NCBI GenBank assembly: GCA_021234155.1
Contig: JAJEKV010000015.1
Span: 1,026,852-1,090,851, forward strand
Direction of reading: 5' to 3'
From: Isoetes taiwanensis
Lineage: Eukaryota; Streptophyta; Lycopodiopsida; Isoetales; Isoetaceae
DNA: 64,000 nt
The notes under the pieces: model-generated
Told to the model about the DNA's origin: nothing
Seen by the model: the letters and a program-made list of their open reading frames with translations, nothing else
Databases searched by the model: none
In this document: positions 5,782-64,000 of the stretch, piece by piece
Numbering within the stretch: the first letter of the stretch is position 1
How the letters are laid out: the number at the start of each line of letters is the position of its first letter
Program-made: the position numbers and the translations under genes

Positions 5782-6392
5782 AAGCAGTGCTTAATTTGAA
5801 TTCACGCAAACCTCAAGAATAGACATGGCGACTTCCCAGAAGATGCTCTGTGCAGAACAAGACGGAAAACTGGCGAATTTAATGCTGCATGATGCCAAAT
5901 GATCCATGTATGGAAAAATTGTCAGCCACTTTATGAAATCGGCCAAGAACAGTTTCTTTATGCGAATTCAACAGATGAATGGAAATCTGATTTACCGTAA
6001 GCTTTACAGGAGGAACTGCTTTAGGTCGAAATGATCTGCTACTGCCAGAACGATTTTACCAGAGGAACTGCTGGCCGAAATTCCTGGTCTGATCTTTGAT
6101 GGACGAAACTGAAGAGCCTCAGAAGAAGGTGCTGGACGGTTCTCCACTGGCTTCGCTCCCCAAAACAATCCGGCCCTCTTCTGTTTCCTTTGCATCCGTT
6201 TTATGAAGGGGCGCACAGGTCACGCCCCTTCTCATCTCATATTAAAAAGAAATTTTTAATTTTAGAATTATATTTAATTTAAGGTATCTTTTCATTTCAA
6301 AGGTATATTAACATTTTCAAATGTATGTTTTCCAAAACCATGTCCATATTCTTAACTTGCCACAACATACATTTATTTCTGCTTGGAGCAGT

Positions 6393-9305: not shown

Positions 9306-9854
9306 ATAAATTGATATTTTATATCGCTGAAGGAATCGATTGCCATTGGAAAGGTCGGAAACTTCGTTGAATGGCATTCACATGTACCAATTCCTTAGTT
9401 TTATGTAACTTTAAACGACATCCATTCACTAAGGTGGGCAGTAATGTACCTTGGAGATCTTTTAATTGTACTGATCCATTTTCATACAATTTATGGATTT
9501 GGAATGGACCAAGCCATCTACATTTCAATTTCCCTGGGTGTTGTTTAAATCGGGAATCATATAAAAGAACCTTGGCACCACATATAAATTGATATTTTAT
9601 ATCGCTGAAGGAATCGATTGTCATTGGAAGGTCGGAAACTTCGTTGAATGGCATTCACATGTACCAATTCCTTAGTTCTATGTAACTTTAAACGACATCC
9701 ATTCACTAAGGTGGGTAGTTATGTACCTTGGAGATCTTTTAATTGTACTGATCCATTTTCATACAATTTATGGATTTGGAATGGACCAAGCCATCTACAT
9801 TTCAATTTCCCTGGGTGTTGTTTAAATCGGGAATCATATAAAAGAACCTTGGCA
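9301..9854. repeat. 277-bp tandem duplication across the integrase/ORF3 junction
   Basis: The block beginning ACATATAAATTGATATTTTA near 9302 and ending before 9578 is repeated, nearly unchanged, from 9578 to about 9854. It covers the integrase C-terminal region (GAKVLLYDSRFKQHPGKLKC and following) and the start of ORF3. Copies differ at a few bases. One difference, TTA in the left copy against TAA in the right copy near 9720, puts a stop in the integrase frame. Confidence 0.88.
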
Positions 9855-40475: not shown

Positions 40476-40479
40476 AAAT
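40476..40479. repeat. Target site duplication (AAAT), left copy, of the 9.3-kb transposon
   Basis: AAAT precedes the terminal repeat at 40480 and recurs at 49811-49814. Confidence 0.7.
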
Positions 40480-40501
40480 GGGTAAAAGCATGAAAGGGTG
40501 T
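40480..40501 (+). repeat. Left terminal inverted repeat
   Basis: 22 bases, GGGTAAAAGCATGAAAGG followed by GTGT; 21 of 22 match the right end (49789-49810) in reverse complement. Confidence 0.85.
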
Positions 40502-40737
40502 CTATAAATGAAGCCCTTTTTGTACATATACATATGTACAAAATGCACATTTTTGGAATAACTGTCATCATGATCCGCTAGTAACTGCCATGATTAATGG
40601 CTATCCACTACTCTGAACCCGCAATTATCGGATTTTGAAATTCTTTCCCAAATTCTTTCTTGGTTTGCCTCTCGTTCACTATCCCGCCCCTGCCTTCTCT
40701 GCTTGAATTCCGATCACGAATTCTTCATCTAGCTATG

Positions 40738-41921
40738 GCCACAAAACGCCCCCAGATGAGTGCTTGCTCATCACCACAGCCCAAGCAAGATGCCAGTGCT
40801 TCCGGCAGTGGATTTTTACCTCCAAGGAGTTTACGTTTGGGTTCTGAGGTGATCTAAGCCAAAGACCTCCGTGATAAACATGCAGAGGCCCACATACCCA
40901 ACCTAGAGATGGTTATGAACGAGGTATGGGGTGAAGCTCCAAAAAACAGACGAGGATTCAAGGAAGGGAGAATCCAGAACGCATGGAAAGATGATTTTTT
41001 TAAATATTATGAATTGGTGGTTACAAACCATTATATTTCTACCTATTTTGCCAGAGCATTTGCTCTTCACTTGAAGGGACGGCTTGTTGATTGGATGGAC
41101 GTGGCTAGGACCGCCAAAGATCTTGCCAAAACCCTCATTTCGTGACGCTTACAGGGACCCTACAACAAAAAATCCTCAACTATCAAACAGACATCGTATT
41201 GCGTGAGAATATTAGAGCCCCGGGTTATTCTAGATCGATGTTGACACAATAAAGCGCTTACTTAAGCATGGGTTGGAGGAGAAAACTAACCTATTGAATG
41301 AAGTAGAAGCATTGGAAGAAAGAAAGAGGGATGCATTGAAGGTCATCACCGGATTGAGGGTAGAAAGGATATGCTATCCCAAGATCTCAGAGCGAATCCG
41401 CCGAGAAAATAGATGAGACAAAACAGGAATTTGACAAATTGTCCCAGGATCCTGCTGGAAATCAAGTTATGTTCGGAGTGTTGAAGTACAAGTTGGAAGA
41501 CTTGGTTATGAGTAGACATGATAAAGAGCAGCACTCTTCTAAGCTAGACATTGGTTTGCAGGAAGCAACTAAAGAAATTGAAAGGCATGAAATCTCAATT
41601 GAACAAGCAAAGGAAAAACTTAATTGCATTGAATTGGTTCAGCAAAGGCATTCACAGATTTTGGATTTCATGGGGAGAGCAGGACCTATTGTTCTCAAGA
41701 CCAGGCCCTACCCTCAGGGAGCTACTTCTATAGAGCAGTTCATCACATTCAGTTCATGTACTTTTGTGGCCAAGGCTTTGGGCAAAACCGGTTTGTTGTT
41801 GCTAGCTCCATGCGTAGATGCTTATTGCCTCTTCGCTTGTGTTATCTCGGTCCATGAAAGACGTAATTGCATAAAAGGTTGCATCCGGGATGAGGGCATT
41901 CAATTCAACTTGGTTTCCTAA
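40738..41921 (+). pseudogene. Transposon plus-strand gene: N-terminal and coiled-coil region
   Basis: A start at 40738 (MATKRPQMSACSSPQPKQD) leads in changing frames to WGEAPKNRRGFKEGRIQNAW, LEEKTNLLNEVEALEERKRDALK and the open frame 41439-41921 (KYKLEDLVMSRHDKEQ, EIERHEISIEQAKEKL). The second and third are strong coiled-coil predictions. No catalytic domain is seen. The segment lies upstream of Ulp1-like exons on the same strand and may be their N-terminal part or a separate accessory gene. Stops between pieces could be introns or mutations, and I cannot separate the two. Confidence 0.4.
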
Positions 41922-41999
41922 CAGTGAAAGGTATGCATTGCTCTCAACTAATTTAAACTTATATTTCACTTAATTCATATTTGTTATTGTAATCTGCAT

Positions 42000-42450
42000 A
42001 GTTCTACATGTATGGCTTTCAGTGCATTGCTATTCCTTGTACATGTATAACTTTTAGTTTACATCTGTAAGCAGAGGTACATAGGCATATATTTGCTTGT
42101 TTATTGATGCTTTTATTTTTGAGCTTGGAGTGCGCTTTGTATCGGTTGTACATGTCTCTAATGGAGTCTCTACATTTGCAAATAGATGTACATGCATTTA
42201 TTTTTAGAGTGCATCCGTAGATGGATTCATAAGTATGTGCATTTTTACATATATGTGCTTTTTTGGGCATAGATCTACATTCCCTAACCGGATACCTGGG
42301 TACATCTGGGTACATCAGTGTACATCTGGGTACACTGATGTACCTTTATGTACATTGAGGAACATGTACATGTACATTTGGCTATAGTTAAATGTAGTTA
42401 CTTACATTTGGTACATTTTATGTACATGAAATGTACATGCTTGGCGTAAT
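42000..42450. repeat. GTACAT-motif cluster 1
   Basis: GTACAT or ATGTAC occurs many times in 450 bases, most densely at 42296-42450 (for example GGGTACATCAGTGTACATCT). A small group is also present just inside the left end at 40525-40545. Confidence 0.8.
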
Positions 42451-42989
42451 GTACCGGATATTTCTCATTAGTTCTGCTTTTCATGTTCTTTTATGTCTAT
42501 TGAAATTTAGGTCATTTGTTTGTTTTGCGGATGAGGTCGTTCCTATCCCGTATGCTTTTAATGGCTGATGTTCTTGAGCCATCTGCATGATCGACTCTCT
42601 TTACAGATTTTACTTGAGCATAATAAGCGCATCGAATTTGTAGATCCTCTACCTTCCAGCTCGGATCACCAATGACATTTACAAAGGCTGCCCGTAATAG
42701 AACAATGCAAGCAAATGCTGCCTCCTCGAACATGGCAAAGTGAAGTTGAGGAAATTGAGAGGATGGCACTTGAGAAAGCTAAAGCAGCTTGCAAAAGTGC
42801 ACCCTTCAATGATCGCCGCAATGTAAAACTCCTTCATCACCAAGTGCTAAATTAGTAATTGGAGAAGCTAAGAAAGATTCAAATTGTCTCAAAGATCATC
42901 TGCGTCCCCCGCCTGGACCTCATTCTGAAGCTACAAAGGAATCAGATCCGTGATTTTATCCCATGAGATACCGTGGAAGAGGAAGCTGA

Positions 42990-43190
42990 GTTGGTAGTTG
43001 AGTCCACTCCAAAGAGGAGGCAAAAGAATGTTGGTGATGGCACTCCAAGAGGAAAAAAAAAAAAATCTCTAGCAAAGAAAAAAATGTCCTCCTAAAAAGA
43101 AAATCTCCGTGCAAAAAAAGTGCCACCACCACCTAGAAAGAGGTATGTCCAAGATGAACTAATTTTGTTAAACATCTCAGGTTATGATAA
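42990..43190 (+). other. Lys-rich basic segment of the transposon plus-strand gene
   Basis: Plus-strand reading gives VEEEAELVVESTPKRRQKN, GTPRGKKKK and KKRKSPCKKS-like stretches in adjoining frames, resembling a bipartite nuclear-localisation region between the coiled-coil and protease parts. It is low-complexity, so the evidence is weak. Confidence 0.3.
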
Positions 43191-43509
43191 TTTACCACCA
43201 CATTTTTGTACATAGGACACGATCACGGTAGTGAAGGAAGCTGATCCCCGATCCTTCCGAAGTGAACCTAAGAGGAAGAGGATGAGGATCTACAAGCAAA
43301 TATTGATGTGATAACAAATAAGGTGCAGCAGTCCACGTAAGATCTTTGAAGCGGTGATGAATTTACAAGGTGAGTAATATACAATTGATTACAATAGATA
43401 TATTCTTTTGCTAATCTTTGTTGTTTCCTTATACGGTTTAGTGAACCGAATCCTAAAGGTTGGTTCCATTCACTCCTTATAGGGACCGTCCTCCTAAGCC
43501 TCACCACCC

Positions 43510-44468
43510 TCTATCTTTCAAAGTGATGTTGACGAAGTTCTCGGCTGAAGCGGACTTGACCTCTAAGATGGTAGATGTCTATGGGAGGTAGGCTAGCATT
43601 TCAACATATTTATGTTATTTCATTCCCTAAGTCACTCATCTTATGTATTAATATGTATTCTGGATTTGTGTGCAGGTACCTTTGTAGCAGTCTTCCATCT
43701 GATTGGAAACACAAGTTTTTTACAGTTCGACCGGACACCTTCGAATTTTGTGAATTCCCTCAAGAACGAAGGCGGATGCACGTAACACTAACATAAAGGA
43801 AGGGTTGGATGGCATTTTGATTGCAAGATGCCAATACATATTTGTTCCAATTCTGCAAGGCCCAAATGTGGCATTGGCAATACTTGTGCTTGCTGGTCCG
43901 GTGAAAAGCTCTTGTCCATCTATAGCTAGCCCAAGTATACAGATCCTCTCTCCTGTCAAAGGCTATGTACCCGATGCTAAAGTGGTCCAGAAGTAAGTAT
44001 GAGTTTCTGTTTTAGTTTTATGATTTGATTATTCTCATATTGCAATTTCTTATGCTTGATTTATTCTCACATTGCAATTTTGCAGGTTTCATAAGCTTGT
44101 GATCAATAACATGATGCTCGGATCCAACAGCTTAAATCATGGTAGGAAGAACTTTGATGCTCCTGTGTTCTGTCCTAAAATGCCAGAAACTAGTACCAGC
44201 AACCCTTGCATGTACATTGTGGCTTACATGCACAAATTCATAGATGTCGTGGTTGATGCACAGCCAAGCTCCATTTTTGTAAGTAGAACATGTTATTTTC
44301 CTATTAGTTATTTGTTGGTATAGTCCTCTAATGCTTGTGCACCATGCAGATGACACCCAGTTGGTTCACTGATGCCTATGCCAAGTCACGGAGGGATCAT
44401 CTAATGGAGGCATTAATTGTAGAAGGCGAGATGAATATACAAGCAGTTGTTCCTACACAGGGTAGATA
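43510..44468 (+). pseudogene. Ulp1-like (C48) cysteine protease region, four exons
   Basis: Exons end and begin at good GT-AG sites: 43587/43676, 43992/44086 and 44278/44350. Each junction keeps the reading frame (VYG-R-YLCSSLPSDW; VVQ-K-FHKLVINN; SSIF-MTPSWFTDAY). The protein has IARCQYIFVPILQGPNVALA, the Ulp1 block where the usual text is ..YIF(I/V)PI..x-HW.., and SNPCMYIVAYMHKFIDVV, which holds the catalytic Cys. The usual catalytic His-Trp pair is not visible (NVAL instead), so activity is doubtful. A frameshift lies near 43790. Ulp1 domains cut SUMO and are often carried by plant transposons of other superfamilies. Confidence 0.55.
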
Positions 44469-44689
44469 GTCCCTTTGACTTGTTTGTGAATTACAGTTTT
44501 GTATGAGCCATGCTCCGAGCTTCTTTGTACTCAATAAGTAATGAAAAAATTAATTTATTTGACTCACTTACACCTGTGCAAATAACAATTGTGTAATTAT
44601 CAATGTGTTTTCTCAATTGTGTAATCTGAAATGTAATTATAAATTGTGAATAGACTCTCAAGTGTTTTGTTGTCGACAGTGAATCATCT

Positions 44690-45174
44690 AATTCAGGGGA
44701 GAAAGCTCATTATCTTTGACTTAAATTCTGTGTTGGGCAAGAGTGTGCACAAGAATGAAAATATTAACTCAAGATACCAAAAGATCCAGAAAGATGAGCT
44801 TCAATTCAATATAGGAAACATGTTTTTTTACTGCAGGCCAGGGTTAGCATCACTGTTTGCATTTGTAAGAGAAGGGTTTGATGTTGTCATCCGTCTTCAC
44901 TCACTTCTAAAAATCTTCTACCAATTGTGGATCAAATTTGTGATGCTTTTTCCATAAAGTGAAGTTTGTTTACAGCCGAGAGCAAGTGTTGGACTCGCCA
45001 CACAAACACCCTCTTGAACCTCAAAAGGGCTTGTTTGTGAAGCCATTAGTCGTGGTATGGAAAGAGTACCCAGAAGTACTATGGAAATACGCTTTGATCG
45101 ATGACGAGAGATACAAATCCACTCAATCCCGTGAGGAAGCTACATATGTCCTTTCTCTTGGACACCAATATTAG
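44690..45174 (+). pseudogene. FCP1/NIF-like phosphatase domain (HAD fold)
   Basis: The plus strand encodes RKLIIFDLNSVLGKSV, FYCRPGLASLFAFVREGFDVV, then after frameshifts near 44890 and 44955 KNLLPIVDQICDAFSIK, KFVYSREQVLDS, GLFVKPLVVVWKEYP and YALIDDERYKS. This is the order of an FCP1/NLI-interacting-factor domain: D-x-(D/N)-x-(T/V), RPGL, the W-x-S region, K-P-L...VW, and IDD. The second catalytic Asp is Asn (DLN). Plant FCP1-like proteins with DLN are known to me from memory. It lies 220 bases after the Ulp1-like exons on the same strand. Confidence 0.6.
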
Positions 45175-45284
45175 TTGGCTTACGGTTGTTTGTCATGGAG
45201 CTCATTCCATGGCTTAATGGATTGAAAATGGCTGAAGATGGTATAGTGTATGTAAAAAGAGCATCCAATGACTAATGCACAGAT

Positions 45285-45980
45285 ATAGCATATCGAAAGC
45301 GGTGGAAAATATTTTGTCTTTGGCAAACTATGGCAAAGAACTTGGGTGCTCTGCGCCTAAATTTAGTCAATATATGGAGCAAGCAATGGAGAAACCGCCG
45401 TCATGTTATTGGCCTCTCGAGTGGCCCATTGTTGGTACGTACTAAAACCGATGTACAAATTCAAATGTTATGAATATATGTATGAAAGTTTTGTTCATTG
45501 CACTTGAGTACTGCTTTTTACCGTCTTTCTTATTGGTACAATTATGAGTGTGTATACATAATTAAGTCAATCTTCATTTGCTTTGTAGATGAATGGACTC
45601 AAAACACAAAAGACTATTATGAAACTAAGAGATAGAGTTCTCGCTAACACCCGTGAGGTAATAGAAACCAACACAAGCCGCAAGCACATAGGGTTGGGGA
45701 CCGATTATCGCCTCTATAATCTTGTTCTTGATCGTGGGAAAAGGTTGACCAAATTGAAAACTATGAGGAACGAGCAACCACAAAATGTATATTGGCAGCA
45801 AATCACTTGTTGCACAACCCTTGGGGAAGGCACGGTCCTGAAGATGAAGGCCATGTAGGATGGAAAGGTTTGCCTAAGTGGCACGAGCTATAGAAACTGC
45901 ATGGACTACTTTGCGTTAGAGGAGGATATCTCTACCTCTCTAGGCGGGCTGGAAGACATGATGCAATAGTCATAAGATAT
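45285..45980 (+). pseudogene. Transposon plus-strand gene: C-terminal region, two exons
   Basis: After the FCP1-like block one reads SKAVENILSLANYGKELGCSAPKFSQYM and PPSCYWPLEWPIV. A GT-AG intron (45435-45588) joins the last codons to DEWTQNTKDYYETK. Further on, in another frame, are AANHLLHNPWGRHGPEDEGH and KLHGLLCVRGGYLYLSRRAG. The exact splice agreement supports a real spliced gene; the later frame change shows decay. The final segments resemble no family I know. Confidence 0.45.
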
Positions 45981-46194
45981 CAGGCTCCTACTGACATTTT
46001 GAAGCTAGGCCATGAATTATGAGCCATGCTCACTTTCAGGTGTGTTGTATTTATGTCCACAATATAAATATATGAACCTTTTGTACATGAAAACCTGTCC
46101 ATTTCTTATCTTTGCCATGATCAAAACTATTTTAATGTTTATGTAATTCAACTTTCTTATGTTCAATTCTAATCAACTTACACTTAACAAATAT

Positions 46195-46270
46195 CTCTGG
46201 AATGTACAACAGATGTACATAAGATGCACATAGGATGTACATATTATGTACATTGATGTACCTAATGCAC
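46195..46270. repeat. GTACAT-motif cluster 2
   Basis: ATGTAC/GTACAT-type units occur about seven times in 75 bases between the convergent genes (GATGTACATATTATGTACAT). Confidence 0.75.
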
Positions 46271-46382
46271 TATTGAAGTAGTCCTTGTCATGTACAATGA
46301 AAATTTGTTCAGTTCTTATCTCTTATATGAACAAAGTATTACAATATTTCGAAAGTACCACGAGATCCTGACTTAGTCCAAG

Positions 46383-49000
46383 TCATCTACAATTCTTTGG
46401 AAGTTGTGATAACAATGTCTCATGGACTTCATCCGGCAAGTGAAATGTTTGGCTTGCCCCTTCAAATTGTGTTTTACTTTCTTGAATGGGATTCGAACCC
46501 CAATCACGGATTCTGCGCAGTACCAAAACATTCTTAGTAGGAAGCGGTTTTATACTTATTGTGGCAGCCGGGATTAGTTCATAATATTGTCCTTCAATGA
46601 CACTAGTGCCGCCAGAGTAATCATTTCCATAGTCACCAATTGAATCTTCTTCCAATGCATGCTTTTCCCTCGTGCACATGATAACATAGTATGAAACACC
46701 TTCCACATTGTCCGGTGTCGCAAAAGACACAAATACATCCAAACTCCTACAAAGGTCATCTAAACCAAAATTTCGCCTTCTCGCATACAAAACATCCACA
46801 TCATTTTCAGCTTCACCACAAGAGGCAATATGATCTGTGGGCTCCAAACTTTTTAGAGACCATTCTCCACAATGTTTAATGTTCTCACAATTCAACCAAT
46901 TGAAGTTAATGCAAGCATCACAAAAGCACAAGAGTGGTCTCTGAGATAGCAACTTTGTTGGATCTGGCATGGGTTTATAGTTGACACGTAATGTATCTGG
47001 CTGAAAGTACCGTAAAGTCTTGCAATTGAATGCTTGCCGCCTGTTCACATCTGTTTTTCCAACCTCCCAAAACACCCTTTCACAATCCGATTCCTTGGCC
47101 CTTAAAACTGCACAAGCTGTTTCTGCACCTGTCACTGGCATGCCATTTTGTTTTTTCTGCTCGCTCTCAAGCCACAACTTTGCTATACCAGCCTCGCCAT
47201 CACGTGTGCCTTTCCCATGGCCAGATCCAAAGAAATTCCATATCACTTTCGAATTTTATTTTCAACATGGTATCTACAGATTCCATACCATGCCCGTCTT
47301 GATTTGAATTGAGATGCACAACCATCCGACCACACATAATGAAGGTTTATGTGTCCACCTCCATTATTCTTAAGCCACCCCAAATGTAATTTAAAACCAT
47401 GTTGCACAAAATGAGTGTCATGCTTTCATCATCCAAAACATAGAAATGCACTCGCTTTTTTAAGCTTACCTTCTATTTTCATCATTGAAATATGGACCAA
47501 AATACTAATTTGATCGAGATTCCAATGCTCGGATTGCACTTCTCGTCCCCTGGTTTCAATGTGTAGTTCTCTCAAAGTCAACAAATGACAACACACTATT
47601 ATCCTGAGTTTCTCAACACATCTTTTAAACTGTTTTGCTCTCGCCAAAGTGTCAATGTAAAGTTATGATCTATAAACTTAGCAAGCTGATTTTTCATGTT
47701 CTTTAACAAAAACAGATGCTTTGTCATTCGATCAACTAATCTAAGCCTTCCGATGTACCTTTTTGATGGCTCATTGACATATGCATATACTTGCCGGTCC
47801 ACATTCTGAATTCCATCTTCCTCGCTTGGACAAATGTCGAATTTCTTCACTCCACATTCATCACATTCACCTTTGATGCATTTTAGTTTATGCCATTCAT
47901 CCGTCACAAATTTTCGCAAACCGCTGACCTCCACAAGATACTAACATTATCAAAAGTCTTCTTGTTTGCTTGACATACTCCATTGTTTTGTTGGGATGCA
48001 CGCATTAATCGCAGCAAGTGCAATTAACATGTAGGGATCTCCTCATATCATTGAAGGCCTTTCAGACAGATCCGCTTGCTCATGTTTGACACAACAACAT
48101 GTGTTTCTCTCCTTCTATTTCCTTATGCAATCAGGTTTCGGATACTTTAACCGTCGGCTTAATTTTGGTATCGATTCTCGATATACAAACCGCTGATAAA
48201 GCTCGGGATCGCAAAGAACAAAACCATTAAAGACCATGTTAGCAAAATGATGTCGGCAACCGATGCCAAAAGAGTATTGAACTATACTATTGTACAATTA
48301 ATGTATGGTCTATGTACATAAAATGTCCATCCAACAGTTCCGATTCGACTGTTATCATGTACATCTAATGTACATCAAGACATCTAATGTACGAACAGCC
48401 CCATCGATGCATTCTCAGTACATCCAATGTACATCCATGTACATCCAAAGTACATCTAATTAATGTTCCAATATTAGTACATCACATTAATGTTACAATA
48501 TTAGTACAACTAATGTACATATGTCGATTTGTTTGGCTTCATTACCCGAAAGTACACTAAACCGTAGAATGATGTAATTTTGATATTCAAGTACATGCAA
48601 ATGCAAAATGCATGGACATGTAAGTGTTAATGGATGTACATCTAAAAAGTACCTAATAGCACATCACCGCAAGATTTCTCATCATTCTTTGTGTAAACAA
48701 TGTATAAATGTAAACAATGTAAAATGCAATACATTTCATGAAAACCATGTGTATTCATTAACGTGTCACTCGAACAAAACTAGAATGTACTGAGAAGAAA
48801 GTCATGAAAGAATTTTGGAAGAAAACATAATCTCCAAAACTAAATTGATTCAATTACAAGAGCAAACCTGCGGAGATATCAAGGTATTGTATTGCTTGTG
48901 TTCTCCCTCTTCATGACATCTCTAACCTTTGGTGAAACTTTGGTATTGTCAAGCCAAAATTCACTTAACCCCGACATTTGATTGAATCATCGATTCTATT
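46383..49000 (-). pseudogene. DDE transposase-like gene of the 9.3-kb element
   Basis: Minus-strand fragments in order: FWLDNTKVSPKVRDVMKREN near 48930, an interruption (48300-48800, possibly an intron, with GTACAT units), a zinc-ribbon-like CIKGECDECGVKKFDIC near 47870, EVQSEHWNLDQISILV near 47520, YVWSDGCASQFKSRRAW near 47310, then VIWNFFGSGHGKGTRDGEAG opening the long frame 46383-47246. The (E)-(I/V)-Q-x-x-HW, WSDG-x-x-SQFK and HGKG-x-x-DG-x-(G/A)G blocks recur, as I recall, in many unannotated animal and plant transposases; I suspect Sola2. The acidic residue in WSDG is kept. Frameshifts at about 47247 and 47600 break the gene. Confidence 0.6.
48300..48560. repeat. GTACAT-motif cluster 3
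   Basis: About 15 copies of GTACAT or near-variants (for example GTACATCCAATGTACATCC) lie in the non-coding gap of the transposase gene. Confidence 0.8.
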
Positions 49001-49719
49001 TGATCTTGGCATCCTTCCCGCCAAAGCCCATACATTTGCTCCACTTAATGACATTATCTTCCTTCTTGCTGCAGCTTTGGATAAATTTCTTGGTCAGATC
49101 TTTAGCAATTTTGAAGAAACATTCTTGTTTATATCTCCTTTTTTCCAACAATCATTGATAATAATGTGAATGTTTTGCAGCCAATTTATCTTTGCTATTA
49201 GCGACTTTACTTCTTGAAGCCCATCTTTCAAGTTTCTAATCATTGATTTCATAACAATAACTTCAGAAGGATTTCCAATTACAGGTTCGAAAACAGGAAA
49301 AAGCCTGTCATCTTGCAACAAACGATCACAAAAAACTAATCTTTGATCTGGACGAAGCGTTTGCCGAAGAATCGAGGATGCAATCTACCGACTTCAACAA
49401 CACGCTTTATTTGTTTTGTGGCATAACACCGGGCCAATGTCGGCATACTTACGCTTTAGAACCATCACTTCCATTGGAATTCTCACCCTCCATGAACAGA
49501 TTGAAATTGATTTGTATTTCTTGTAGATTCAATTGGCATGTGTTTGCTTCTGGAATTCGTTCGGTGTTCGTCCTGTGAAAGGGGGGAATTTCGGAAAGGG
49601 AGGGACGGATCCATTCGAATTGGTTTGGTGGTTCGGTGGTTAACCAAGAATTTCGGGGGGAATGTCAGGGATGATCTTGCAATCATTGCATATCTGACAC
49701 AAAACAACAAACCATAGTA

Positions 49720-49790
49720 TCTTGATGTACATCTAAAATGTACCCCAAAAAAGCACAAATTCGTCCTTCAATTCAGTACGATGTACGTAC
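49720..49790. repeat. GTACAT-motif cluster 4 (right subterminal)
   Basis: GATGTACATC, ATGTACCCC and CGATGTACGTACACC lie directly inside the right terminal repeat, mirroring the cluster just inside the left end. Confidence 0.7.
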
Positions 49791-49810
49791 ACCCTTTCGT
49801 GCTTTTACCC
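49789..49810 (-). repeat. Right terminal inverted repeat
   Basis: Plus strand ACACCCTTTCGTGCTTTTAC followed by CC; the reverse complement of the left end with one mismatch. AAAT follows at 49811. Confidence 0.85.
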
Positions 49811-49975
49811 AAATACAGTAAATTAACTACAAATATGCATTAACTAATGGTACCAAAGTTACTCAAGCGGAGAGGTTGGAAAATCTTACCAAAGGAGATG
49901 ATAGTCCTGTATGTTGTTCCCATGCTCTTTTCTCTGGCCTATGGGGACTTCAAAACCTCATGATTCATCACGGTA

Positions 49976-51954: not shown

Positions 51955-52003
51955 GTGAGTTTGTGCTCTTGCAGATGTTTTCTCTTCAGAATTTTGGCTA
52001 ACT

Positions 52004-53029
52004 TTGGATGGAGACGATGAGTTGCTATATTTGAAGAAGTGTTTTCAAAAGTTTTTGGTGTCTTCTAGATCTGACAGTACTTTGAGGGGTTATCAACATG
52101 CTTGGAACCTTTTTAAGAATTGGTGCAAGTCTAAGAACCTAGTTTTCCTACCTGCGGAGCCTTCCACTGTTTGCCTTTTTCTCACATTGTTGATCACTTC
52201 CTTTTCTAATCCATTAGCTCGTGTCAGCACGACCATTGCTGCTGTTTCCTTTCATCATCTGCTTGCCGGTTACTCAAAGCCTACAGATCATCCATTAGTT
52301 GGCCTTGCTCGAGATGTGGCTAAGAGATTATCCATTCCTTCACTTAAAAAGAAACAACCCATCCTTCCCCATATGATCCGCAAGGTCTTTGTGCAATTTG
52401 CTTCTCCTTCAGCTTCCCTTTTGGATGTTATGAGATGTACAGCTATTGTTTTTTCTTTCGTTGCCTTCTTGCGTAGCAAAGAGCTGCTATCCTTGTTTTG
52501 GAATGAGATTCTGATTTTGGATACCCATGCTAGTCTTTTTATCCGTTCCTCCAAGACAGATCAGTTGGGTGTTGGTGCCTGGGTCTCTATTGCTCGCCTC
52601 TCTGGTCCTTATTGCCCCGTTGGCCTTTTGGAAAGACTGTTGAAGTTAGGGAATTATGCTGAAGTGGATGGTGTGGCTGGAGGCCATTTGATTAGGGGTA
52701 TACGTGTGACACATCATGGTTGCTTTCTAAGGAGAAGGCCCGTTTCATATTCCACTCTGAGAACTTGGTTCAAGCATTGCCTTGCTGCCATTGGTGAAGA
52801 TGCTAGTGCTTTTGGTACCCATTCAGCAAGAAGAGGAGGAGCCACTTCAGCAGCTGCTTTGAATGTCCCAGATAGAATTTTCAAGGCTCATGGTCGTTGG
52901 CGCTCTGATTCAGGTTATGTTTTGCCTTCTATCCAACAACAACTGCTTGTTTCCCGTTTGTTAGGCTTAGGCCCTGAAGACCCTAGTGCCTTTGGCCCTG
53001 TTGTCGGCTTCCTCTGCCCCTCTCTGTAG
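52004..53029 (+). CDS. Tyrosine recombinase of a DIRS-like element, 341 residues, catalytic residues intact
   Basis: An uninterrupted frame encodes a tyrosine recombinase. Residues 1-105 look like the SAM-like core-binding domain (STLRGYQHAWNLFKNWC, FLTLLIT). The catalytic domain carries Arg157 (VAFLRSKELLSL), Lys184 (RSSKTDQLG), His273 and Arg276 (THSARRGGATSA), His296 and Trp299 (AHGRWRS) and Tyr305 (GYVLPS): the complete R-K-HxxR-H/W-Y set. Such enzymes replace integrase in DIRS-type retrotransposons, inserting a circular DNA without target duplication. Met at 52004 is the first usable start; an in-frame stop lies just upstream. The RNase H end of the same element precedes it. No terminal or split direct repeats were found. 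Confidence 0.85.
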   Translation: MDGDDELLYLKKCFQKFLVSSRSDSTLRGYQHAWNLFKNWCKSKNLVFLPAEPSTVCLFLTLLITSFSNPLARVSTTIAAVSFHHLLAGYSKPTDHPLVGLARDVAKRLSIPSLKKKQPILPHMIRKVFVQFASPSASLLDVMRCTAIVFSFVAFLRSKELLSLFWNEILILDTHASLFIRSSKTDQLGVGAWVSIARLSGPYCPVGLLERLLKLGNYAEVDGVAGGHLIRGIRVTHHGCFLRRRPVSYSTLRTWFKHCLAAIGEDASAFGTHSARRGGATSAAALNVPDRIFKAHGRWRSDSGYVLPSIQQQLLVSRLLGLGPEDPSAFGPVVGFLCPSL

Positions 53030-55168: not shown

Positions 55169-55960
<792 letters not shown>

Positions 55961-55989
55961 AGAGGTGCTAAGGCATAAGGCATCGCCGC

Positions 55990-56575
55990 AGAGTATTTGG
56001 ATTGGGCTGAATGGTAGGACAAGCAAAATATATGTTGCTGGCTGTTATTTTCCGCCCAGGGATTCACCGGTGTATGATAAGGGGGATCTTGATAGGGATG
56101 ACCCATTTTTCCACTTAGAGCAGGATATTCTGGCATTGAGTAGAACAGGGGAAGTCTTGCTATTGGGGGATTTTAATGGGCGCACTGGTAATAACCAAGC
56201 AGCATTGGTAAGTCCAGATGGGAATGAGGAGTGGTTGGAGATGATGGATAATGGCGAGCTTGAGAAAACTGGGTGGAATAGGATATCTGATGACTTGGTG
56301 AAATGGCCAACTCCGCAAGGCCGGCATGTTCTACATATGTGTAGTGGTTTTGACATGGTAATCTTCAACGGAACAACAAGATATCCGGGATCGGGTAAAT
56401 GCACCTGTAAAAATGCAAGCGTGGTAGACTATGTCATTGCTAAACCTTCCTTTGGGGAACATATTGTTAGCATATCCATTGGGGATGAGAATGAAAACTC
56501 GGACCATGTACCGGTATTTCTTGAAATAAGAGTGCAATTGCATGGCGTGCAGCGGGTTGATATGACATAAAAACA
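55990..56575 (+). pseudogene. LINE-2 endonuclease, C-terminal half
   Basis: The APE-type endonuclease is represented from the middle strand on: GCYFPPRDSPVYD, LLLGDFNGRTGNN (catalytic Asp and Asn), SVVDYVIAKPS and ENSDHVPVFLEI (catalytic Asp-His), ending at a stop at 56570 just after the domain. The N-terminal catalytic residues (N and E) are lost by 5' truncation. The open frame upstream to 55602 reads through the CT tract and does not belong to the protein. This domain would nick target DNA to prime reverse transcription. Confidence 0.88.
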
Positions 56576-56579
56576 ACAG

Positions 56580-59031
56580 ATACATCTGAGATATGATAAG
56601 GCGGAGAAATACAGTGATATATGCGAGGAGAAAGTTAAGGCTCTTGTATGGCCGAACTCCTTACAGGAGATGATGTGTTGACTAATATTTTGCTTCAATC
56701 AGCGGACAGTTGTTTTGTCTCTTATCGCCAAAGGATGGGATTGCCTTGCAATGGCTGGTTTGACTTGGAATGCAAGCGACAGCGGGAAAGATTCAAATCA
56801 TCACATGGAGCAGCTAAGGCACAGGAAAGGAAAGAGTACATTAAGCTGATAAAAAATAAAAAGAGAGTGTATTTGTACAGGAAACAAGAGAAGATGGTAA
56901 AAGAGTTGCTGGTGGACCCAAAAAAATTCTGGAAGCGACTCAAACCGTTGAAATATGCGGACAATGAATTGCGAGTAGAGCTGCTTATGGCGCATGTGCG
57001 CAAGCTTTATGATGTGCCCGGGGGCAAAAAGATGGCAGATGACACGGATACTATAACAGATATGTTGGCATTCACTGTAGAGGATGTACGGGTGGGGGGC
57101 TCAAGAGACTTGCTAATGGCAAAGCGGCTGATACTTGCGGCCTCGTGGCGGAATTGCTTAAATGGGCGGGGGAGGCAGTTGAAAATAAGTTGGCAGATAT
57201 GTTTAACTTAGCTTTGACAGGTGGCTTCCCTGTGTCGTGGCAAGTTAACAGGGTTGTACCATTGCACAAGTCAGGGGATAAAAAAGATCCGAGCAACTAT
57301 CGCACTATCATGGTGGGCAGCCTATATGCAAAACTGTTTGCATCTATTCTGGAGAGCAAGGTAAGTATGTGGGCAGAAAACCATAATGTCAGGGCGGTGG
57401 GGCAGGCAGGTTTTAGGCCCAAGAAGTCCACGACCGATCATTTGGTTACTCTTAGGGCCATGATGGACTCAGTAGTGGGGAAAAGGAAACCGTTGTATGC
57501 TACATTTGTGGATTTTAGCAAGGCTTTCGATATGGTGAATAGAGAAAATCTGGGACATAGGATGGTAGATCTTGGCATCCCGAAGGAGCTCATGCATGCG
57601 GTAAGGGTACTCTATGATAAGGTACTTGTGCAATTGTCATTTCCTTTTGTGGAATTTTGCGATGAGGTAGTAGAGAGCAATATGGGTGTGAAGCAGGGGT
57701 GCCCCTTATCACCTACTCTATTTGGGTTATTCATAGACCAATTGGAAGAATGGATAGGAGCACATGGGGGAGATGGCACACCTCTGTATGGACATGTTCT
57801 CAGGCTCTTACTGTATGCTGATGATATTGTTTTGCTATCCCGGAGCATACAAGGGATGCAAAGACATTTAGATGCATTGGCGACATTCTGCAGTAATCAG
57901 GGTATAGTGAACTTGGATAAGACCAAAGTGGTGGTATTTGGGGCAAGTAAGACCGATCACATTCAGCTAGATTATATGGGCAAACACGTGGAGGTGGTAG
58001 ACAACTACAAATATCTGGGGGTGAACGTAGATAAGAGCCCCACCTGGAACCAAGCAGTTGAGCATAGAGTGAATGCGGGCTTAAAGGCACTATATGCTAT
58101 GCAAAAAAAGTGTGTGCACGCTGAGGTATGGAATTTTGAGATGAAGCGCATGCTATACAAAGTATTGGTGCAAATTGTTGTGCTATACGGGTGTGAAGTC
58201 TGGGGGCCGGGCCTTGCTAATGATAGCTGGAAAAAAATAGAGAAGATACAAAAGAAATTTTTTCATACGGAGCTAGGCACCAAAATGCAAACACCATACG
58301 ATATGATGTTAGTGGAGTGTGGGATGATGCCACTTGAGGCTGAAGCGCTTTGCAGACTCTTACGCTACATGTGTAAGCTATATGAGTTGCCAAACAATAG
58401 TCTACCACGACTTGCTTTAGAGGAAACAAAAAGCAAGGGCTGGTTTGCAGACATTGAGAGATGGCTTATAAAATGGGGAATGAGTATCCATGATTTAGAA
58501 GTACATAAGGAAAATATAGAGGAATGGGTCAGGGATAGCTTTCGACATAAGTCATGGAGTGTACCAGTAGTGAAGAAAGAGTATTACAGATTACATGTGA
58601 ATCCTTCCATGCAGGCAGCGCGTTATCTTGGGGAGCCCATATCAGTAAAATATAGACAAGCGATTGCCAGGATCCGATTGAGCTCTCATCACCTGGGGGT
58701 AGAGATTGGGAGATGGGCAAATATTGCACATGACATTAGGCATTGCAGGGTGTGTGATGGAGGGGTGGTAGAGGACGAGACTCACGTCTTGACTTCATGT
58801 CCAGCATATTCGAGTATCAGACTCAAGCATGGGGTCTTGGCTACTTCACTTGGTGATTTCTTCTCATATCCAGGATCATGTATTGGGGGGTGTATAGTTG
58901 ATATTCTTGGATGCAGAGAGGACCTATTGAAACAACGTGCAGTAGAGGAGATAGAGGTAGAGGAGCCCAGTGCATTATTCTCAGAGGATGCACTGGATGA
59001 TCTGTTTTATGATTTTGAAAGCAATGTGTAA
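56580..59031 (+). pseudogene. LINE-2 reverse transcriptase and C-terminal CCHC region
   Basis: The linker between endonuclease and RT lies at 56580-57098 (LPCNGWFDLECKRQRERFK, KRVYLYRKQEKMVKELL, KKFWKRLKPLK); a stop at about 56570 and frameshifts near 56648 and 57098 break it. From 57100 on the frame is open for over 630 codons: LLKWAGEAVENKLADMF, NRVVPLHKSGDKKDPSNYRT, GQAGFRPKKSTTDHLVTLRA, FVDFSKAFDMVNRENL, GVKQGCPLSPTLFGLFIDQL and the active-site box YADDIVLL near 57814. The thumb and C-terminal region follow, with a zinc-finger-like C-x2-C-x7-E-x-H-x4-C (CRVCDGGVVEDETHVLTSC). The listed Met at 57145 is internal. Confidence 0.9.
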
Positions 59032-59032
59032 A

Positions 59033-59062
59033 CGTCTCATAGACCTGGCGGTCTCGAAGACG
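59033..59062 (+). other. 3'-terminal LINE hairpin (LINE-2)
   Basis: Outer stem CGTCT (59033-59037) with AGACG (59058-59062), inner stem AGACC (59041-59045) with GGTCT (59050-59054), loop TGGC. It starts right after the ORF2 stop and 18 bases before the pentamer tail. It corresponds in place and shape to the LINE-1 hairpin. Confidence 0.65.
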
Positions 59063-59080
59063 AGATAATAAATTTCATTT

Positions 59081-59754
<674 letters not shown>

Positions 59755-60791
59755 ATGCCCAAAAACTCTAAAAAACCTAAAAAAACTGATGGTGGGTCGG
59801 ATTCTGAGTCAGCAAGCTCGGAATCAGGGGGATATGACGGATCCATTGGATTGAAGGTGGCTGGTGCAGACCCATCTCAACTGCAGGTTCCGGAAGGAGC
59901 AATTTTGGATGGGATACTTGGTGGAGCAGTCCAAAACAACGTGCTTGGAAAAGCAGAGATGCAATTGAAGAAACTTGATGCAAAACATGATGCTTTGGAC
60001 GGAATATCAGCTGAGTATGAAGTTGGGTCTGTAGCTGCAACAGGGGAGCTTAGTAAGATTGCCGGAGGAGTTACAAAGGAGGATTTGTTCTTTGCGAGTG
60101 GGCATATGAGACAAGCAATGGACCAAGCAATGTCGTCAATGAAATCAGCCATGGAATCTTCAGTCCAAGGTATGGTAAATGATCTTAAGTCTTTCCTTCT
60201 TGCTCAAGTTCAGCATGAAATTGATAATTGCAAGAATAAAATGCTGCAAGAAGTAGCAGAATTTAAGAGGGAAATGAGAGAGGAATTTGAGATGTTTAAG
60301 CAGGGATTTCCCTCTACTGTAGAGCAGACCAGCGATGTTTGTGGAGAAGATCATAGCAATGATATGATACAGGTGAAAAGTCAGCTTGCAGCATATATTG
60401 AAGAGCAGGAAAGGAAAGAAAAAGCCCTGAATCTTAGAGTCATAGGGCTGTCGGAGGAAGCCGAAGAGAAACCACTGAAGCAATGATGTCCTTTTGCAGA
60501 CACGAGCTCCAAATAATTGATGCTGGTATTATGGAAGCATTCCGGGTTGGGAAGCCTAATAACAGGGACAGACATATCATAGTAAAGTTTCGCTCAAGAG
60601 AAGATAAGATCAATGTGCTAAAGAAGAAGTCCTTGTTGAAAGGGAAAAAGATATGGATAAATGACGATCTTACTAAGATCCAGTTGCAAGAGTATAAAGA
60701 GCAGGTGCAGGTATTTCGGGAAGCCAAGCAAAATGGCAAAAAGGTTTTTTGGCGTCGTGGGAAGGTGGTAATTGAAGAGGAAGCTGCATAG
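59755..60791 (+). pseudogene. LINE-3 ORF1 (Gag-like RNA-binding protein), one frameshift
   Basis: ORF1 starts at 59755 with MPKNSKKPKKTDGGSD (basic, Ser-rich N-terminus). About residues 110-185 form a helical coiled coil (MRQAMDQAMSSMKSAMESS, CKNKMLQEVAEFKREMREEF). The RRM-like start ALNLRVIGLSEE is then cut by a one-base shift near 60468. In the next frame TTEAMMSFCRHEL, AFRVGKPNNRDRHIIVKFRS and KIWINDDLTKIQLQEYKEQ complete the domain to 60791. This middle/C-terminal region resembles LINE ORF1 RRM plus C-terminal domains that coat RNA and act as chaperone. The four-base ATGA overlap of the two frames at 60483 follows from the shift and is not evidence of coupling. Confidence 0.8.
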
Positions 60792-60812
60792 GAATTCGAC
60801 ACCACCAGGGTT

Positions 60813-61590
60813 ATGTGTTGGAATATAAACAGTTTAAATGTGACCAAAGTAAATATGATGGGAGATATGCTGGAACAAGCAGATTTAATCTTTTTTTTAG
60901 AGACGTGTGAGAATGAAGAGCGCGGTGCTGTAGATATTGCAGGTTTTGATCTGATACATTCTGTGTGGAATTATAAACACTGGAGATTGAAGGGTCATGG
61001 TGGCATTGCATGTTATGTGAGGCAGAAAATGAAGCATTTGGTAAGGCTAGTACAAGGACATGGATCTAAACAGCATATATGGGTTGAGATATCTGGGCAT
61101 AAAGGAAGGATCTTTATAGCAGGATGCTATTTTCCTCCACGTGAATCCCCAGTTTATAATGGTGGAGTGCTAGACAGGGATGATCCCTTTTTTGATTTGG
61201 AGCAAGACGTTCTTAAATTATTGTCTCAGGGGGAAACACTCCTTATGGGAGACTTTAATGGGCGTATTGGGAGTAGGCAGGCAGCAATTGCAAGTACAGA
61301 CGGAGAACCTATATGGATGGAAATGATCGATGCAAACGAGCTAATGCAAAGTGGGTGGAATAGAGTTTCTGCAGATGGAATAAGGTGGCCTACTCCTCAA
61401 GGTAATCATCTCCTCAGCATGTGTACAGGATTAGACATGGTAATATATAATGGTGTTCATAAGTACCCAAATACAGGGAAGCTCACATGTAGAGGATCCA
61501 GTGTGGTTGATCTAGTAATAGCAGATTGTAAATTTTGTGATTGGGGATGAGAGACTTGAATCGGATCATGTGCCCATTTTCATCTCTTTA
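60813..61590 (+). pseudogene. LINE-3 ORF2: APE-type endonuclease
   Basis: The frame opens MCWNINSLN (catalytic Asn), then LIFFLETCENEE (Glu), HGGIACYVRQK, FIAGCYFPPRESP, LLMGDFNGRIGSR (Asp, Asn) and SSVVDLVIAD, ending at 61550. The closing ESDHVPIFISL, with the catalytic His, is read in the next frame from about 61555, so one frameshift near 61545 separates it. All usual catalytic residues are present. The enzyme nicks the chromosomal target; its preference may be (CT)n DNA, judging from the insertion site. Confidence 0.87.
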
Positions 61591-64000
61591 CGAGTTAGCA
61601 AATATGAGATTGTTAAGAAAGTTGCTAATGATGGCCCAAAAAAAATTTGTCATGCGCTTTCATAAGGCTGATAAATATGAATCCCTATGTGAAGTGGAAG
61701 CAGCGAGAATAGATTGGCCTAATAAGGCCGAGGACATTAGTGCATTGCTTAGTACTATGGTACTGGATGCTGCTAAGAAATGCTACGTATCCCATAGAAA
61801 GTTGAAAGGCCTGCCATGTAATAGCTGGTTTGATGAGGAATGTAAGATGAAAAGACAGGAATTTAAAACAGCAAAGGGGGATGAAAAGAAGTTGATTAAG
61901 AGAGAGTATATGAAGATGGTGAAATCAAAGAAGAAGAAATTTCTATATGAAAGGCACTTGCAAATGATGGGTGAGCTGCTTAAGGAGCCCAAGAGATTCT
62001 GGAATCGAATCAAACCGAAATTAAAACACTCGGCGGTGTTAGGGAAGGAAGAATTACTAGATTATATATCTAGATTGTATCACATCCCAGGCATAGAGGA
62101 CAATGTGTCAGTGCAATATATAACTGATAGGGGATGGGAGTTCACGTTGGAGGATGTAGAAGAAGGTTTGCAAACATTAGCAAATGGGAAAGCTGCAGAT
62201 ACATTAGGATTAGTAGCAGAGATGTTTAAATGGGCAGGCCCGAAAACTCATGAGATTCTTTGGAAATTAATGAATGCAGTCTTGAGAGAGGGCTTTCCGC
62301 ACAGTTGGCAAGTGAACAGAGTTATTCCCTTGCACAAACTAGGGGATGAAAAAGATCCAAACAATTACAGAATGATAATGATTAGCAATTTGTATGCCAA
62401 ACTATATGCCACCATGGTAAACAGGAAGATTAGTGGATGGGCTGAAGAGAACAATGCTAGGGCAGTGGGGCAAGCAGGTTTCAGGCCTAAAAGATCAACG
62501 ACAGATCATTTGATCACTTTGCGTGCTCTGATAGACTCAGTCATAGGAACTAGAAAACCATTATATGCACTTTTTGTGGATTTTACAAAAGCATTTGACA
62601 CTGTACATAGGGGGAATCTTTGGGAGTGGATGGAGATGCTTGGGATACCTGAGGAATTGAGAAATGCTGTCAAGATGCTATATGAAAAGGTATTGGTAAA
62701 GCTTTCATTTCCTTACTATGGTGTAGGTTCAGAAGAGGTGAGCAGTAATATGGGGGTCAAACAGGGCTGCCCTATGTCCCCTACTTTGTTTGGACTGTTT
62801 ATAGACCAGCTTGAAGATTGGGTGAAACAACTTGGAGGAGATGGTATGGTCATGGGAGGCTATGTGTTGCACATGTTGTTGTACGCAGATGATATAGTTA
62901 TTTTATCCGTCAGTGGCAGGTATGCAGAAGCATTTAGATGCTTTGTCTCTCTTCTGTGACAATAAGGGCATGAAGGTGAATTTGACTAAAACTAAATTGA
63001 TTGTTTTTGGGGCACTTAAAGTTGGACATCTTAAATTTTTATATAAAGGAGAACAGGTTGATATTGTAGACTCATATAAATATTTGGGGATTCAAGTGGA
63101 TAAAACTCCAAGTTGGAATCAGGCTGTAGATCAGAGGTTAAGTGGTGGGTTGAAGGCTTTATATAGTATGCAACGCAGAAGTGCAAATGCTGATATTTGG
63201 AATTTTGAACTAAAGAAAATGCTATATAAAGTGCTTGTACAAACTGTTGTACTATATGGCTGCGAGATGTGGGCACCTGGGCTAGCAGAAGAAACCTGGA
63301 AAAAAGTTGAAAAGGTTCAGAAGAAATTTTTCAGAACAGAATTAGGGGTTAAGGCACAAACTCCATACGATATGATGTTGGCAGAATGTGGCATGATGCC
63401 TCTAGAGGCAGAGGCACTGTGCAGAACACTTGAATATGTTTGCAAGGTACAAATGGATATGCACGAAGAGAGCTTGCCTAGAATTGCCATGGATGCAACG
63501 AGGTCCAAGGGATGGTACTCTGATGTTCAAGCTTGGATGAAAAAATGGGGATTGGAATGTAATGATTTACATATCCAACGTGGTGATATTAGGGCCTGGG
63601 TACAGGAACACGTGATTATGAGATCGTGGCGTGTCCCAGAAGTGAAGAAAACATATTATAAACAGTGCATTAATCCTTCTCTTCAGCAGCCAGGATATTT
63701 GAGTGAAGGGATATCAGTGAAGTGTAGGCATGCAATTAGTAGACTAAGGCTCAGCTCACACAGATTAGGAGTGGAAGTGGGTAGATGGAGCAACATACCT
63801 CATGAGCTTAGGATGTGTAGGCTATGCGGTATGGGAGAAATTGAGGATGAGGCACATGTTCTTTTGCGCTGCCCACAGTATGCAGGTCTACGTCTTATAT
63901 ACCAAATTAACTGTAATGATTTGGTTGCATTTTTTGGTCTCTCGGGAAACATCACAGGTCATTTTATAATTGAAACGATGGAACACAGGAACAATGTGCT
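61560..64000 (+). pseudogene. LINE-3 ORF2: reverse transcriptase and C-terminal region (3' truncated by window)
   Basis: The frame 61541-62959 has the linker (LPCNSWFDEECKMKRQEFK), then LHKLGDEKDPNNYRMIM, GQAGFRPKRSTTDHLITLRA, FVDFTKAFDTVHRGNL, GVKQGCPMSPTLFGLFID and the active site YADDIVIL near 62886. Two frameshifts (about 62913 and 62950) follow. From 62951 a frame stays open to the window end: NLTKTKLIVFGA, SYKYLGIQVDKTPSWNQAV, MLYKVLVQTVVLYGCE, EKVQKKFFRTELGV, LRLSSHRLGVEVGRW and the finger CRLCGMGEIEDEAHVLLRC near 63811. With LINE-2 it gives a reliable family alignment. Confidence 0.9.

Follow-up and report, generated by a model that had tools for sequence, protein, structure and literature searches.

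A 9,331-bp transposon with two convergent genes, one transposase-like and one for an accessory protein with Ulp1-like and NIF/FCP1-like parts, lies in a 64,000-nucleotide stretch of the Isoetes taiwanensis genome (assembly GCA_021234155.1, contig JAJEKV010000015.1, positions 1,026,852 to 1,090,851 of the forward strand), hereafter called the window, whose own numbering is used throughout. We consider the element an autonomous-type cut-and-paste transposon of a large Sola2-like lineage in which the accessory gene is a lasting component, a reading to which we give a probability of roughly 80%. The “Sola-like” label fits the 4-bp target-site duplication and the short ends of the element, which is delimited as follows:

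40480..49810, no strand assigned: whole transposon, 9331 bp; both ends recur in 12 of 20 fetched copies
40476..40479, no strand assigned: left target-site duplication, AAAT
49811..49814, no strand assigned: right target-site duplication, AAAT
40480..40501, plus strand: left terminal inverted repeat, GGGTAAAAGCATGAAAGGGTGT
49789..49810, minus strand: right terminal inverted repeat, one mismatch

The inverted repeat pairs 40479-40501 with 49789-49811 (23 nt, 96%), and 22 nt of it, 21 of them matching, lie inside the element; the fixed ends of the window family read GGGTAAAAGCATG... A preliminary description of this DNA had proposed a 9.3-kb element with 22-bp ends (21 of 22 matching) and AAAT flanks, all of which was reproduced, with the same end bases in independent copies. 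Two Sola2 features are present, namely short imperfect terminal inverted repeats, here of 22 bp, and a 4-bp target duplication, seen also as ACCT in the relative L029. When the genome (1,658,258,908 bases in 1,110 contigs) was searched, the first 221 bp of the element gave 558 first-look candidates and the last 250 bp gave 548; the best 40 scored in each search, the window being included among the left-end matches, were all full-length at 98 to 100%. Leaving the window aside, copies of 10 kb each were fetched for 20 of the 39 best-scoring matches to the left end, a sample biased towards good left ends. Element positions 1 and 9331 were both reached by alignment in 12 of these, eight of them in one uninterrupted alignment (L012, L013, L016, L017, L021, L024, L025, and L028) and two in two pieces with both genes retained (L020 and L023), while L015 and L027 carry internal deletions, L015 being strongly deleted. 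Absence of any other copy with both ends and both genes had been named beforehand as grounds for refuting the preliminary description; 10 of the 20 fetched copies share both. For the remaining eight, both ends were not seen within the 10 kb fetched; the right end is listed beyond the fetched stretch for L018 (by about 0.1 kb), L009 (about 1 kb), and L010 (about 7 kb).

Besides the window with its AAAT, a perfect 4-bp target duplication flanks 10 of the 12 two-ended copies (TGAT, TAAT, TCAA, TTAT, TATA, CCCT, CTAT, AAGT, GCCT, and GGTC), and those of L012 and L021 are one base off. At least three A/T bases occur in 8 of the 11 distinct duplications. L012 and L013 lie 48 kb apart on one contig with identical flanks and are probably a single insertion that was later duplicated along with its site.

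The transposase gene occupies the right half of the element:

46383..48273, minus strand: main part of the transposase-like gene, showing D...D...E-type blocks and, in the window copy, a broken frame; 52% identity over 211 residues to the transposase of L036 (E 9.9e-72) and 35% over 270 residues to that of L029 (E 5.1e-41)
48291..48640, no strand assigned: TGTACA array in a presumed intron of the transposase gene
49097..49520, minus strand: putative N-terminal part of the transposase, from open reading frames of the window and of copy L025

The minus-strand gene and its blocks, as originally described, are borne out, and the blocks are split over two frames: EVQSEHW and WSDGCASQFK share one frame with intervening stops, and GHGKG..DGE stands in a different one. 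Further blocks, VDFAENY and SDD..HD, are readable in other copies (L024, L025, and L018). A Pfam search with the transposase returned no convincing family and no match to a Mutator-like element (MULE) family, and a search of viral contigs returned no match. When the L029 transposase protein was compared with the genome, 8,344 first-look candidates were obtained, of which 150 were scored. The window element represents a single branch within a very large lineage, which seems to number thousands of fragments or copies. The transposase would cut at the terminal repeats and join the element to a 4-bp staggered target.

The accessory gene, on the plus strand and convergent with the transposase gene, is made up of a coiled coil, a lysine-rich part, an Ulp1-like part, and a NIF/FCP1-like part:

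40735..41930, plus strand: first exon region, which covers the N-terminal part and the coiled coil and has a broken frame in the window copy; no convincing Pfam family
41745..41890, plus strand: possible degenerate RING-like Cys cluster, tentative, from copy L021 compared with the RING-like part of L034
41931..42606, plus strand: intron 1, containing a TGTACA array at 42038-42437
42607..43142, plus strand: Lys-rich linker exon
43457..44460, plus strand: Ulp1-like (C48-related) domain, four exons, recognised via the relative L035
44682..45434, plus strand: NIF/FCP1-like domain exon, PF03031
45589..46022, plus strand: last exon, C-terminal part without a convincing Pfam family
within 43143..45588, plus strand: seven further GT-AG intron candidates (43143-43215, 43370-43441, 43588-43675, 43993-44085, 44279-44349, 44462-44679, and 45435-45588)

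We infer from these candidates that the gene is spliced. Of the earlier proposal of four GT-AG introns that keep the frame, the introns stand, eight rather than four in number; the kept frame does not, given the many breaks and stops that both genes show in the window copy. The donor GT is retained in all copies scored (12 or 13) for seven introns and in nine copies for the eighth. Retention of the acceptor AG ranges from 12 copies for introns 3 and 8, through 11, 9, and 8 copies for introns 2, 6, and 5, down to 5, 4, and 3 copies for introns 1, 7, and 4, and for these last three other acceptor letters are equally common or commoner among the three commonest letters tabulated. Pfam searches with the N-terminal, coiled-coil, and tail parts gave nothing convincing. 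As to the Cys cluster, that of L021 aligned to the RING-like part of L034 with a score of 64 (best of 20 shuffles, 41), and among the 12 copies scored those of L012, L013, L017, and L025 did no better than their own best shuffle.

Assembly quality may bear on the broken frames, which could otherwise be read as the mark of a dead family. Between the window and copies L012 to L028, differences amount to 7.0% near CG and 9.6% near CHG versus 1.55% elsewhere, with no marked C-to-T excess, and the published I. taiwanensis assembly (1658.30 Mb, 204 scaffolds and 909 contigs) is Nanopore-based with Illumina and Bionano data, according to the available part of its description (PMC8566536). Given this clustering and the reliance on Nanopore reads, many of the frame breaks may be artefacts, caused by base-calling errors at methylated cytosines. 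A separate idea, that the non-coding parts are less methylated than the exons, was rejected, as differences near CG and CHG are about equally frequent in both.

The Ulp1-like and FCP1/NIF-like parts that the preliminary description had assigned to this gene were both recovered, the latter directly and the former via L035. The unmodified open reading frame of copy L009 matches PF03031 at 46.3 bits (E 4.8e-12, cut-off 21.8), and the window’s own joined pieces do so at 29.5 bits. The sole PDB match of the L009 frame up to E 10 is UBLCP1 (E 8.9e-5); its AlphaFold model was uninformative, with a mean predicted local distance difference test score (pLDDT) of 29.7. Six dispersed NIF-like domains were aligned, namely L009 (window family), L036, L029, and L034, which stand beside a transposase, and L032 and L033, beside whose NIF domains no relative of the window-family transposase was found. 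In all six the second Asp of motif I is replaced by Asn or Gln (DLN in the window family and either DxN or DxQ in each of the five remaining rows), as compared with DLD in the single host-like row, L030. The window family therefore departs from DxDx(T/V), which we take to be the catalytic motif of NIF/FCP1-like phosphatases, and the L036 part also has TD in place of the later DD. The motif-I change may therefore be old and might already exist in a host gene family.

In Pfam, with E values of up to 1 admitted, the window’s Ulp1-like read itself matched no C48 family. When the genome was scanned with PF02902, 150 of 800 candidates were scored and 52 matches obtained, one of them L035, whose two-exon read reaches 44.6 bits (cut-off 20.7); the Ulp1-like exon of L036 alone reaches 33.6 bits against the same cut-off. 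The in-frame window read matches L035 by tblastn at E 1.1e-21 (26% over 250), and the local score of the two regions is 265.5, the shuffled maximum in 300 trials being 82.5. Six PDB matches up to E 10 were listed for L035; the best three, two to SENP7 and one to Ulp2, are all weak (E 0.018 to 0.17). That the label is wrong and the region an unrelated fold is therefore very improbable, although the failure of the window read in Pfam speaks for such a view, as does the origin of the first supporting match, which came partly from an out-of-frame reading. This first reading, with a “WHW” block, was discarded once L035 showed the other frame to be right. The early SENP7 match counts for the Cys segment only, because its query was partly out of frame; several earlier tblastn queries with the Ulp1-like part also held the block, and the L035 comparison was redone in frame. 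Behind its Ulp1-like exons, L035 carries at 4032-7000 what by eye is a Copia-type retrotransposon with long open frames.

The His-Asp-Cys triad of C48 proteases is incomplete in the window: compared with L035, the His is missing (PNVALAILVL versus PAHHVLVIFVL), Ser stands at the Asp position, and Cys is retained, a comparison in which assembly errors could blur residues. L035 and L036 retain His and Cys, with Asn replacing Asp. The suggestion that the element encodes enzymes acting on SUMO and on phosphoproteins thus becomes doubtful, the window being without the triad His and Asp and the second Asp of the NIF motif being Asn or Gln. Both enzyme-like domains seem catalytically eroded, which would favour a role as adaptor folds.

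The pairing of the NIF-like domain with a transposase extends well beyond the window family. In L036, Ulp1-like exons are followed by a NIF-related exon, matched by the window-family NIF sequence at tblastn E 2.0e-18, beyond which lies a transposase in convergent orientation; L036 thus repeats the gene set of the window. L029 is a 7.7-kb element of a second, diverged family, with related ends GGGTGAAAGTATG, the duplication ACCT, and the convergent layout of the window element; its 423-codon open frame, scoring 69.1 bits to NIF, faces the transposase. L034 combines a coiled coil, a RING-like part, a NIF match of 76.1 bits, and a convergent transposase; its own element ends were not found. The RING-like part is weak against its profile (best 21.6 bits in L031, 13.8 bits in L034, cut-off 27.3), and the L034 and L031 parts match each other at tblastn E 2.9e-17. 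Neither the window sequence nor that of L035 detected an Ulp1-like part in L029, L031, L032, L033, or L034 (best E 0.14).

On the genome scale, PF03031 gave 3,261 first-look candidates, of which 150 were scored with 151 matches, all 150 listed being above the cut-off. For counting pairs, the 47 highest rows (>91 bits, more host-like) were dropped and the other 103 taken, among which L030 proved host-like. Fourteen of the 103 lie at most 6 kb from one of the 150 listed transposase matches, 13 of them convergently, as compared with 0.11 such neighbours expected under even placement; both lists are the best-scoring parts of longer sets. Two NIF-like genes of a different branch were also seen, in L032 (G000:C179:238600-248599, 77.7 bits) and L033 (G000:C1027:14497800-14507799, 74.7 bits), the former close to a frame that weakly resembles DUF7869 (20.2 bits, cut-off 26). 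NIF may be carried by more than one transposon type.

A further property of the window family is the abundance of the palindrome TGTACA, which forms arrays in intron 1, in the presumed transposase intron, and at one more place:

46082..46296, no strand assigned: TGTACA array between the convergent genes

The element holds 29 TGTACA sites, 28 of them outside exons as drawn. The expected number is 3.06, and none of 300 simulated first-order Markov sequences had more than 9; the other 54.7 kb of the window hold 17. Among the other two-ended copies the count is 27 to 38 in 11, L015 excluded, and 15 in L015. Mechanistically, the accessory protein would be a largely non-catalytic adaptor, built of eroded Ulp1-like and NIF-like folds, that would recognise the element, perhaps via the TGTACA arrays, and would relieve host silencing or help transposition, as VANC proteins do for VANDAL elements. 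We advance this proposal, drawn by analogy, only tentatively, with the odds somewhat against it.

The arrays admit two further explanations. In maize Spm, TnpA bridges the element ends by binding sites within the element. A comparable helper role, with either the accessory protein or the transposase attaching to the TGTACA sites and so linking the ends, would suit a palindromic motif in arrays whose spacings include 10 and 11 bp and which also occurs near both ends (40521, 40535, and 49726); most sites, however, lie in introns and between the genes rather than in the terminal few hundred bases, and we regard this as somewhat unlikely. Alternatively, since GTAC is the core of SBP-box sites and occurs 66 times in the element, 56 of these outside exons, the arrays might recruit a host transcription factor unrelated to the accessory protein, which appears unlikely.

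The adaptor proposal can be sharpened by analogy with VANC. In the available part of PMC5735166, VANC21 is described as binding a short motif that lies in introns, between genes, and in the non-coding termini of the element encoding it, VANC targets are often tandem repeats, and VANC motifs differ among related families. The resemblance of the TGTACA arrays to VANC target arrays is one of layout only. That a lycophyte transposon should have evolved, independently of VANC, a comparable anti-silencing system with sequence specificity, in which dead SUMO-protease-like and FCP1-like folds would read the TGTACA arrays of introns and spacers and would have helped the lineage multiply, strikes us as improbable.

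Several observations weigh against the accessory gene as a lasting, element-recognising component. No protein is tied to TGTACA by any observation, Pfam recognised no convincing DNA-binding domain in the accessory protein, and the arrays are nearly absent from L036 (6 sites in 5.5 kb) and lacking in L029 (3 sites). The NIF-related frame of L036 does not reach PF03031. Several intron acceptors are poorly retained among copies, possibly because several sit in CAG contexts, where assembly copies differ most. No purifying selection was detected within the window family (13 copies, polymorphisms in at least two copies and away from CG/CHG): shared polymorphisms at codon positions 1/2/3 number 29/43/36 for the accessory gene and 22/18/16 for the transposase, neither gene as a whole having an excess at the third position; the NIF and tail part of the accessory gene by itself has 10/12/18. 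Between L035 and L036, the Ulp1 exons show 4 synonymous and 6 non-synonymous codon differences, numbers too small for a verdict.

Captured host Ulp1 and FCP1-like exons might thus merely ride along with no role for the element. Such a passenger would leave no selection signal within the window family and could lose its catalytic residues, as observed, and a precedent exists in Sola2 elements that carry captured Fanzor1 genes, as reported in the available part of PMC3627910. Yet the convergent NIF-transposase pairing recurs in families with transposases that share 35 to 52% identity with that of the window, and relatives keep long open NIF frames (423, 347, and 292 codons). Between L029 and L031, the ratio of non-synonymous to synonymous substitution rates (dN/dS) is 0.37 for NIF on 34 differences and 0.32 for the RING-like part; two pieces of the transposase have ratios of 0.78 and 0.63. 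All of this is weak evidence. We therefore hold a mere passenger to be unlikely. Captured host exons, one of the options of the preliminary description, are alone unlikely as a full account, the NIF-transposase pairing being common to deeply diverged families, and we retain the accessory gene as a lasting component of a Sola2-like transposon.

Outside the element, the window contains a 356-codon open frame at 51959-53029 without a Pfam match, which by eye ends in what we take to be tyrosine-recombinase-like motifs (HSARRGG), and a 994-codon open frame on the minus strand at 6393-9377 without a convincing Pfam match. At 55584-63998, two related gene sets that by eye are of the reverse transcriptase type of long interspersed nuclear elements (LINEs) stand in tandem, flanked by long TC-type simple repeats.

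No paper among the open-licence papers searched was found to combine Ulp1, Sola, transposon, and phosphatase, nor Isoetes, DNA transposons, and Sola, nor NLI interacting factor, transposon, and Ulp1; comparison is therefore with systems that share parts of the element. Its NIF-like domain resembles the FCP1/SCP/UBLCP1-type HAD phosphatases (PF03031) in its profile match and in UBLCP1 as the closest PDB sequence, and differs in the DxN or DxQ that replaces DxD in the six dispersed domains, one host-like row being compared. The Ulp1-like part resembles the Ulp1/SENP cysteine proteases (PF02902) through L035 and L036, both of which exceed the cut-off and retain His and Cys but have Asn in place of Asp, whereas the window family is without His and Asp. 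The FCP1-like domain accompanies the transposase through deeply diverged families.

In MULEs the target duplication measures 8-11 bp; the 4-bp duplication of the window element and its transposase, which has no MULE family match, set it apart from the VANDAL/KIU MULEs of Arabidopsis. With these it shares an Ulp1-domain accessory gene beside the transposase and a short motif repeated in non-coding parts, according to the available portions of PMC13317346 and PMC5735166, in which no NIF-like domain is mentioned for those elements. The review (PMC13317346), as far as available, states that KIU (Kaonashi) elements carry VANC genes with an Ulp1 domain; it is the source of the VANC-Ulp1 link, Ulp1 not being mentioned in the available parts of two VANC papers, PMC5735166 among them.

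The lycophyte lineage diverged earlier than ferns and seed plants. Ulp1-like accessory genes are reported from plant MULEs in the accessible part of PMC13317346, and the preliminary description names CACTA elements as well; here such a gene is linked to a different transposon lineage in a lycophyte. If the accessory protein does counter silencing, Ulp1-linked anti-silencing would have arisen more than once. There is also a likeness in architecture to Sola2, including the Sola2-Fanzor chimeras of Dictyostelium and Polysphondylium. According to the available part of PMC3627910, these have a transposase gene together with a captured second gene, short ends of 12-13 or 21 bp, and AT-rich duplications of 4 bp that include AAAT. 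The window family’s duplications are less strictly AT-rich than those of Sola2 (8 of 11 with at least three A/T). In contrast to the Sola2-Fanzor chimeras, the second gene of the window element is an Ulp1-like and NIF-like one with introns, carried in a land plant.

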